Below are positions 15 through 3,864 of a DNA stretch of 64,000 bases, one piece after another. The stretch is from Flavobacteriaceae bacterium (GTDB taxonomy: Bacteria; Bacteroidota; Bacteroidia; Flavobacteriales; Flavobacteriaceae): positions 1 to 64,000 of the forward strand of contig JAKMEK010000038.1 in NCBI GenBank assembly GCA_022425945.1, written 5' to 3'. The first letter of the stretch is position 1. The number at the start of each line of letters is the position of its first letter. The notes beneath the pieces were generated by a model. That model was not told the DNA's origin. It did no database searches and saw nothing but the letters and a program-made list of their open reading frames with translations. Position numbers and translations under genes: made by a program.

Positions 15-22
15 TATATTTG
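15..22 (+). promoter_or_regulatory. putative Bacteroidota -7 box TATATTTG upstream of porin
   Basis: matches TAnnTTTG, 33 nt before the ATG at 56. Confidence 0.45.
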
Positions 23-27
23 CGCTA

Positions 28-50
28 TTATTTTAATTTAATCTAAATAA
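28..50. promoter_or_regulatory. 23-bp imperfect palindrome (putative operator, copy 1)
   Basis: TTATTTTAATTTAATCTAAATAA; arms match at 9/11 positions; 21/23 identical to 1233-1255. Confidence 0.55.
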
Positions 51-55
51 GGACA

Positions 56-1231
56 ATGACACGAGTTTATATTACTAGTTTATTTATTTCCATTGGATGT
101 GTTTTTTTACACGCCCAAACAACGACTAAGCCAACAGATTCCTTAATTGCAGCACAGCAAATTAATGGATATCAGCGAATTTTAAATAATTTGAGTGGTA
201 TTCCTCAAGGGGTCACCATTGGTGGTTATGGTGAAGTCTTGTACAACCAACCAACAAACTTAAATGGCGAATTGGATGTGCAGCGTTTGGTGATGCTTTT
301 TGGGTATAAATTCGATGATCGTGTACAGTTTGTTACTGAAATTGAATTTGAGCATGTGAAAGAGGTGTATGTTGAACAGGCTTTTGTCAACTATTCTGTC
401 GCAAATGGGCTCAATATTCGCGCAGGTTTGATGTTGGTGCCCATGGGAATTGTAGCCGAGTTCCATGAACCGACTACTTTCAATGGCGTAGAACGTCCGA
501 GTATGGATAAATATATTGTTCCCACAACTTGGAGAGAAATTGGAATTGGTGTAGCCGGTAGGGTAGATGCCCTAAGTTTGCGTTATCAAGCGTACTTGTT
601 CAATGGATTCTTGTCGCACGATGGTGAAGAAGGTAGATTAAAAGGGAGCTCTGGACTACGTGGTGGGCGACAGAAAGGTGCTGAGTCGGTTGTAGATCAA
701 TTCAATCTTTCGGCAAAGCTCGATTATTATGGTATTCCTAACCTTCGTCTCGGTTTGGCAGGTTACGCCGGTCGAACTCAAGCAGTAGATGGTCAGAATC
801 AAATTCCCGGGAGTGATATTGGGGTAGCCATGTTGGGCTTGGATGTACGTTTTAAATGGCAGAATCTCTCCGCTCGCGGACAATTTGTTCACGCAAACCT
901 TACTGATGCCGATGCGTATAACACCCTCACTGGTCGTGATCTTGGAAGCGAATTAGGTGGTTTTTATGTAGAAACTGCCTACAATCTTTTACCCATAGTA
1001 AACCGTCAACGCCTAGATGCATTTGTCCGTTACGAATCCTATGACACCCATAAGAGTGTCGGGTCATCAATCGCGAGAAATGCAGCTTTTGATCGTGAAG
1101 AATGGACACTAGGATTGAGTTATCATATGTCTGTAGGCACAGTCTTTAAGGTTGATTATCAGTCGAAAAGGACAGCAGTTGCCGATTCTCAATATGGTCA
1201 GTTCAACGTTGGAGTAGGGGTATGGTTTTAA
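56..1231 (+). CDS. outer membrane porin-like beta-barrel protein
   Basis: signal peptide, amphipathic beta-strand pattern, terminal aromatic (GVGVWF). Confidence 0.75.
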   Translation: MTRVYITSLFISIGCVFLHAQTTTKPTDSLIAAQQINGYQRILNNLSGIPQGVTIGGYGEVLYNQPTNLNGELDVQRLVMLFGYKFDDRVQFVTEIEFEHVKEVYVEQAFVNYSVANGLNIRAGLMLVPMGIVAEFHEPTTFNGVERPSMDKYIVPTTWREIGIGVAGRVDALSLRYQAYLFNGFLSHDGEEGRLKGSSGLRGGRQKGAESVVDQFNLSAKLDYYGIPNLRLGLAGYAGRTQAVDGQNQIPGSDIGVAMLGLDVRFKWQNLSARGQFVHANLTDADAYNTLTGRDLGSELGGFYVETAYNLLPIVNRQRLDAFVRYESYDTHKSVGSSIARNAAFDREEWTLGLSYHMSVGTVFKVDYQSKRTAVADSQYGQFNVGVGVWF

Positions 1232-1232
1232 T

Positions 1233-1255
1233 TTATTTAAAATTAATCTAAATAA
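1233..1255. promoter_or_regulatory. 23-bp imperfect palindrome (putative operator, copy 2)
   Basis: TTATTTAAAATTAATCTAAATAA; same geometry and same right arm as 28-50. Confidence 0.55.
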
Positions 1256-2391: not shown

Positions 2392-3864
2392 ATGAACAAT
2401 CACTCCGATAAATTTTTAGAACAAGGTCTTACATACGACGACGTATTGCTTGTTCCCGCCTATTCAGAAGTATTGCCTAGAGACGTAAAACTCAATACTA
2501 AATTCACCCGTAACATCAGTTTAAACATCCCCATTATATCAGCGGCGATGGATACTGTTACCGAAAGTCAAATGGCCATCGCTATGGCCAGAGAAGGGGG
2601 GATTGGCGTACTGCATAAGAACATGACCATTGCTGCACAGGCAGATAAGGTACGCATGGTCAAACGCGCAGAATCCGGTATGATACTCGATCCTGTTACC
2701 CTTAGCCAAGAAGCTACAGTAGGAGATGCTAAAGAAAACATGTCACGCTATAAGATTGGTGGAATTCCGATAGTAGATTCAATGGGTAAACTCAATGGAA
2801 TAGTTACGAATAGAGATTTACGTTTTGAAAAAGATCTATTGCGCCCCATTACCGAAGTGATGACATCTGAGAATTTAATTACAGTAACCCAAGGTACTTC
2901 TCTTGCAGAAGCCGAAGGTATACTTCAGCAACATAAAATTGAAAAGCTACCCGTGGTGGATGATCAATATCAATTGGTGGGTTTAATTACCTTTAGAGAC
3001 ATCACCAAGCATACCGACAAGCCCATTGCAAATAAAGATTCTTATGGGCGACTACGAGTGGCTGCAGCTGTAGGGGTCACGGGAGATGTTATCGAACGTA
3101 CAAGAGCGCTGGTTGAGGTAGGAGTAGATGCTATTGTCATTGATACGGCACATGGTCATACAAAAGGTGTAGTAACCGTTCTTAAAGAAGTAAAAAAGAA
3201 TTTCCCTCAGCTTGATGTCGTCGTTGGAAACATAGCCACTGCTGCTGCTGCTAAATATTTAGTAGAAAACGGAGCAGATGCCGTAAAGGTAGGAATAGGG
3301 CCTGGGTCAATTTGTACAACACGTATCATTGCAGGGGTTGGTTATCCTCAGCTTTCAGCTGTTTTAGCGGTTGCCAATGCCATCAAAGGGAGCGGTGTGC
3401 CTGTAATTGCTGACGGAGGAATTCGTTACACGGGTGATATTCCAAAAGCCATTGCGGCCGGTGCAGATTCGGTGATGCTTGGATCACTGCTCGCAGGGAC
3501 CAAAGAATCTCCAGGAGAAACCATCATATACGAAGGAAGAAAATTTAAGTCCTACAGAGGAATGGGGTCAGTAGAAGCCATGAAGAAAGGAAGTAAAGAT
3601 CGCTACTTTCAGGATGTAGAAGATGATATTAAAAAGCTTGTTCCTGAGGGCATTGTGGGGCGTGTACCTTACAAAGGTGATTTGTACGAAAGTATTCATC
3701 AGTTTATCGGTGGTTTACGCGCAGGAATGGGGTATTGCGGAACCTCTTCGATTGAGGAGGTGAAAGCGAAAGCTCAGTTTGTACAAATTACGGCTGCTGG
3801 AATCCGCGAAAGTCATCCGCACAATATACAAATCACCAAAGAGGCGCCAAATTATAGTCGTTAA
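2392..3864 (+). CDS. guaB: IMP dehydrogenase
   Basis: full-length: [20 protein letters not shown] pair, [17 protein letters not shown] catalytic loop. Confidence 0.97.

Follow-up and report, generated by a model that had tools for sequence, protein, structure and literature searches.

We conclude with high confidence that two near-identical palindromes flanking the porin gene at the start of the window (the whole stretch of DNA that we analysed, 64,000 nucleotides) are Fur boxes, at which iron-loaded Fur would shut off the promoters of the porin gene and of the FMN-binding gene that follows it. The sequence comparisons described below argue strongly for iron-repressed expression of this operon. 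From them we also infer binding by the organism's own Fur, the direction of control, and a role for the operon in iron acquisition. This type of site is known, and its target here, a set of porin, FMN-binding, and membrane proteins, appears to be undescribed; we found nothing on this operon under iron limitation in the literature that we searched.

The two 23-mers lie at positions 28-50 and 1233-1255 of the forward strand. They are identical at 21 of 23 positions (two positions differ), and 9 of the 11 arm pairs match in each, exactly as the earlier note had described them. As it had also claimed, the first copy lies between the promoter element TATATTTG (16-23) and the ATG of the porin gene (position 56), and the second copy lies 2 bp 5' of the TTTG (1258-1261) of the FMN-gene promoter. 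If up to three mismatches to the palindrome are allowed, the window has two matches, as compared to 0.00 for 100 dinucleotide shuffles, and the whole 1.83-Mb assembly has three sites, as compared to none for a reversed control pattern. The earlier note took the repeats for a shared operator; a genome-wide occurrence at background frequency, which would speak against this, was looked for and did not occur.

From 141 sites, all of them in other genera, we built the symmetric consensus TTATTTAGAATAATTCTAAATAA. Read as the reverse complement, its central 19 bp are identical to the Fur box (ATTTAGAATTATTCTAAAT) of Riemerella anatipestifer, also a member of the Flavobacteriales. This box was predicted and then supported by EMSA on four promoters, with purified Fur binding fragments that contain such boxes (PMC5609570). 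With a matrix trained on the other genera (maximum score 34.2), the site at 28-50 scores 28.7 and the site at 1233-1255 scores 32.6. The next-best place in the window scores 7.3 with this matrix, and the top score from 30 simulated 64-kb sequences was 19.6. With the 19-bp core (maximum 27.7), the two sites score 22.2 and 26.1, respectively, and the listed Riemerella boxes that we tested with the core matrix score 17.2-26.4, with the hmuR box (ATTTAAAATTATTCTAAAT) reaching 26.4 of 27.7. The sites described here differ from those of Riemerella in having two further conserved bases on each side (TT...AA), which gives a 23-bp unit, and in being paired around a porin promoter; the Riemerella table (PMC5609570) does not include a porin-FMN operon. 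The classical enterobacterial Fur box (GATAATGATAATCATTATC) is likewise a 19-bp palindrome with an odd centre that lies over iron-uptake promoters, but its letters are different, and the setting here is a Bacteroidetes promoter (-33 TTTG and -7 TAnnTTTG).

In this genome and its relatives, the motif lies upstream of feoAB, TonB receptors, DUF4856 lipoproteins, mrp, hemA/AraC, nqrA, and a multihaem cytochrome operon. For feoAB of this genome (contig C6), the box is at 3000-3022, with one mismatch. In five genomes, the feoAB box begins 1 bp after the -7 element, a position at which bound Fur would prevent transcription. Both a fur mutation and iron limitation derepress feoAB in R. anatipestifer (PMC10434265). 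In a pattern search that allowed up to two mismatches, matches to the motif outnumbered those to the reversed control in 18 of 18 genomes, albeit barely in G047, in which Fur is present and a strong motif is absent.

Several other placements of the box are worth recording. In four loci (L072, L077, L083, and L097), it lies between hemA and a divergent AraC-family gene and adjoins the start of the latter. Upstream of DUF4856 lipoprotein genes (L074, L080, and L099), a pair of Fur boxes with a spacing of about 70 bp surrounds a TAnnTTTG element, which is also the design of the porin promoter. In genome G036, the porin operon lies after a locus for a TonB receptor, HmuY, and DoxX; a second FMN-binding gene, together with DUF6607, is divergent from these genes, with boxes in between (L060:6056-10805). 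HmuY is a haem-binding protein, so this neighbourhood again points to iron.

The earlier note had suggested a metal regulon of the "Fur/DtxR type". Its metal-responsive character stands, and the regulator can be narrowed to Fur by the match to the Riemerella box, by the iron-related genes that share the motif, and by the missing DtxR. This genome encodes a Fur-family protein (C79:24685-25035, E = 2.9e-24; the Pfam model does not split Fur, PerR, and Zur), and DtxR (PF01325) has no match in it (the assembly is 85.7% complete). Fur-family genes are present in 18 of 18 genomes, and DtxR is above the cut-off in 13 of these. When we surveyed 118 genomes of the order, a Fur-family gene was present in each of the 83 that bear the motif, and all 26 genomes without Fur lacked the motif, although this co-occurrence discriminates weakly because the Fur-less genomes are mostly reduced and lack DtxR too.

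Might the boxes instead be operators of a DtxR-family (IdeR/MntR-like) repressor? DtxR-family operators have the form TTAGG...CCTAA, which TTAGA...TCTAA loosely resembles; also, DtxR-family genes occur in 88 of the 118 genomes, and in two genomes a DtxR gene lies a few kb from feoAB. However, besides this genome, DtxR is unmatched in G003 and G010, and in G005 the only hit is below the cut-off. G037, which is 99% complete, has matches to the motif (and also one control match) without any DtxR hit. Furthermore, the motif matches a box that was reported to be bound by Fur in EMSA. Given the absence of DtxR from motif-bearing genomes and the match to the Fur box, we reject this very improbable alternative. 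We also give very little credence to a Fur paralogue (PerR- or Zur-like) that would sense peroxide or another metal instead of iron. Several genomes do have a second, lower-scoring Fur-family gene, and the Pfam model cannot tell Fur, PerR, and Zur apart. But we detected just one Fur-family gene in this genome, the targets are genes for the uptake or use of iron, and the Riemerella regulator that acts at the same box answers to iron. Fur itself thus remains our preferred regulator.

The third site in the assembly is TTATTTAAATTTATTCTAAATAA, on another contig of the same genome (C67:4931-4953). It is 13 bp from the contig's end and overlaps the end of a gene similar to HMG-CoA lyase (hmgL). Relatives whose contigs extend further have hmgL followed by a box, 61 bp, a second box, and the porin gene, and the hmgL-like gene of C67 is 84% identical to the porin-adjacent hmgL of the relative G013. 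We therefore consider C67 and C8 (the contig that starts at the start of the window) to be probable neighbours. If the contig ends overlap by 2 bp ("AG"), then the two boxes are 61 bp apart, which is the value in the aligned members of the genus. As the box on C67 would abut the start of the window, the porin promoter is probably flanked by two boxes, box A on C67 and box B at 28-50. The earlier note was thus right about the operator at 28-50, but it described a single box where the promoter seems to carry two, one on each side. The assembly breaks off within the porin promoter, with one of two near-identical boxes on either side, and the two contigs can probably be joined.

A search with a porin profile yielded 80 named loci, almost all of them from Flavobacteriaceae, and the closest named relatives are Candidatus Arcticimaribacter. 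(Two of the 80 loci begin too near the gene, which leaves 78 that are assessable.) In 77 of these 78, there is a box with at most two mismatches within 300 bp upstream of the porin gene (75 have at most one mismatch); these are not independent events, as orthologous promoters share ancestry. Shuffled porin upstream regions yielded a box in 1 of 1,560 cases. Two boxes are present in 71 of the 78 loci, and in 68 of these 71, a TAnnTTTG element lies between the paired boxes, and in every case its start is 24-26 bp past box A. In the window, this predicted -7 element is TATATTTG at 16-23 (+ strand), which fits the Bacteroidetes element, and box B (28-50, + strand) is expected to lie over the transcription start. 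Across the orthologous promoters, box B follows the -7 element at a variable 4-18 bp. When the promoters are aligned on box A, the only parts that are 90% conserved are the box itself, a TT at -33, and TAnnTTTGC; the remainder has diverged. We also asked whether boxes A and B might be helically phased or joined by a loop, but their spacings range over 58-74 bp, with modes of 61 and 73, which does not support strict phasing.

This conservation also bears on whether the boxes could be chance palindromes or a dispersed repeat. The sites are AT-rich, as such a reading would have it, but neither the shuffles of the window nor the genome-wide control gave any match, and nearly every assessable locus (77 of 78) retains the box while its surroundings diverged. 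The shuffles, the control, and the conservation together refute this reading, and we consider its probability to be negligible.

The order of the porin, FMN-binding, and membrane genes is retained in 79 of the 80 loci, and in 56 loci, hmgL and guaB flank the operon on either side. In one genome of the same genus (G012, L063:7438-8588), the porin is gone, the FMN gene is reduced to a fragment that contains stops, and one Fur box is left after hmgL.

The second repeat in the window, the predicted Fur box C (1233-1255, + strand), is directly 5' of the -33 element of the FMN-gene promoter (TTTG, 1258-1261, + strand), which aligns with that of relatives. The corresponding -7 element is again TATATTTG (1282-1289, + strand), and its TAnnTTTG is kept in 8 of 8 aligned sequences from the genus. 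Just 31 of 79 orthologous loci have a site before the FMN gene. In many relatives, the porin promoter or a weaker site may thus govern the FMN and membrane genes. For the proposal that one repressor controls all three genes, a shared operator is still the best reading, but the FMN-gene box is an addition that is less consistently present.

The porin gene (56-1231, + strand) is an open reading frame that encodes 391 amino acids and that we identified as an outer-membrane porin from a structural model with about 16 beta strands. The protein does not belong to any family in Pfam or NCBIfam, and a sequence search of the PDB was without a match. The best matches of the model (pLDDT 69.5) in the PDB are 16-stranded porins: OmpU, PorB, OprP, and OmpK36 (E down to 3e-12). 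Its predicted fold is therefore like that of the general 16-strand porins and of OprP/OprO, but unlike them it has no match to a sequence family. An OprP/OprO-type phosphate porin was not indicated, as there was no Pfam match and the resemblance in fold is common to many porins. A Riemerella protein annotated as "Porin" (B739_2089) is induced by iron limitation; we did not count this as evidence for the porin in the window.

The second gene (1306-1842, + strand) encodes a secreted or membrane-anchored protein of 178 amino acids with an FMN_bind domain (PF04205, E = 1.5e-6; 29.1 bits, with a cut-off of 22). It is weakly similar to RnfG, and a sequence search of the PDB gave only a marginal match to RnfG (E = 0.24). 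Residues G150, A151, T152, I153, and S154 are invariant. This GATIS stretch, which we take to resemble the (S/D)GA(S/T)-type motif at which ApbE attaches FMN, is likely to be a site of covalent FMN, and the genome has two genes for ApbE flavin transferases. In the known ApbE-flavinylated redox systems (PMC8238504), as here, an FMN_bind domain with GAT(I)S is found along with ApbE in the genome, and some of these extracytosolic systems are tied to iron assimilation. In contrast to those systems, the FMN gene in the window does not lie beside a gene for ApbE, PepSY, MsrQ, RNF, or VIT1; its partners are a porin, which the main text of that study does not mention, and a four-helix membrane protein. 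The gene for this membrane protein (1842-2342, + strand) is an open reading frame of 166 amino acids. It overlaps the stop codon of the FMN gene by 1 base, which suggests that these two genes are probably co-transcribed. The model of the membrane protein has four helices (pLDDT 77); we found no Pfam or NCBIfam family for it, and a fold search gave nothing below E = 0.1.

We propose the following mechanism. When iron is plentiful, Fur dimers loaded with Fe2+ would occupy box A, just 5' of the -33 element, and box B, at the transcription start, and this occupancy would shut off the porin promoter. At box C, Fur would have the same effect on the separate FMN-gene promoter, or would tune it. When iron is scarce, the dimers would dissociate, and all three products of the operon would be made alongside FeoAB and the TonB receptors. 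As for what the operon does, our guess is that it reduces ferric iron with flavin, possibly in the periplasm so as to feed FeoAB.

A different arrangement is conceivable, in which box A and box C are activator sites where Fur, whether iron-loaded or not, contacts RNA polymerase, and box B alone represses. The start of the -7 element keeps within 24-26 bp of box A in 68 of the 68 promoters where it was found, as compared to 4-18 bp for box B; the position of box C is the same as that of box A; and the boxes of the cytochrome operon are at another fixed upstream position. On the other hand, box A abuts the -33 element, which is itself at a fixed distance from the -7 element, so box A has little positional freedom. 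A repressor at box A would likewise block RNA polymerase, and the known strong operators of iron uptake repress. We therefore think that activation from boxes A and C is unlikely and favor repression by iron-loaded Fur at these promoters.

Fur-box-like sites were also found upstream of two sets of respiratory genes. The site at a multihaem cytochrome (ActA-like) operon (L068:2840-2862, which is G000:C61:26339-26361 in this genome; also L270-L299) is present in 30 of 30 genera. It ends 42-44 bp upstream of the -7 element (26 times at exactly 44 bp), while anything between 127 and 405 bp separates it from the gene. Another site lies between nqrA and a divergent gene with a type 9 secretion plug domain (L067:3247-3269, or G000:C18:33246-33268; also L240-L269). 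An upstream site for nqrA is present in 10 of 30 genera, and six or seven of these are 42-45 bp before the -7 element. This fixed position would suit activation by iron-loaded Fur, as we hypothesize for these operons. Part of the spacer of the cytochrome operon is conserved, so another protein may bind there. In Riemerella, cytochrome genes fall under iron limitation (PMC5429918).

A broader and quite tentative idea, which we think is somewhat doubtful, is that the porin, the flavinylated periplasmic protein, and the four-helix protein would form a new iron-acquisition module of the Flavobacteriaceae, with flavin-driven ferric reduction behind a dedicated porin. Fur would repress at boxes over start sites and would, in the same regulon, activate iron-rich respiratory operons from boxes fixed at 42-45 bp upstream of the -7 element.

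If our reading of the sites is correct, the three boxes assign a porin, a flavin-binding protein, and a small membrane protein to the iron-starvation response of a large family of marine bacteria. The tested operator matrix can be used to predict iron regulons across the Flavobacteriaceae, and the fixed positions of boxes relative to promoters make it possible to test directly whether Fur also acts as an activator of respiratory genes in Bacteroidetes. The operon is conserved in hundreds of Flavobacteriaceae loci and would be linked to iron limitation, a condition that shapes large parts of the surface ocean.
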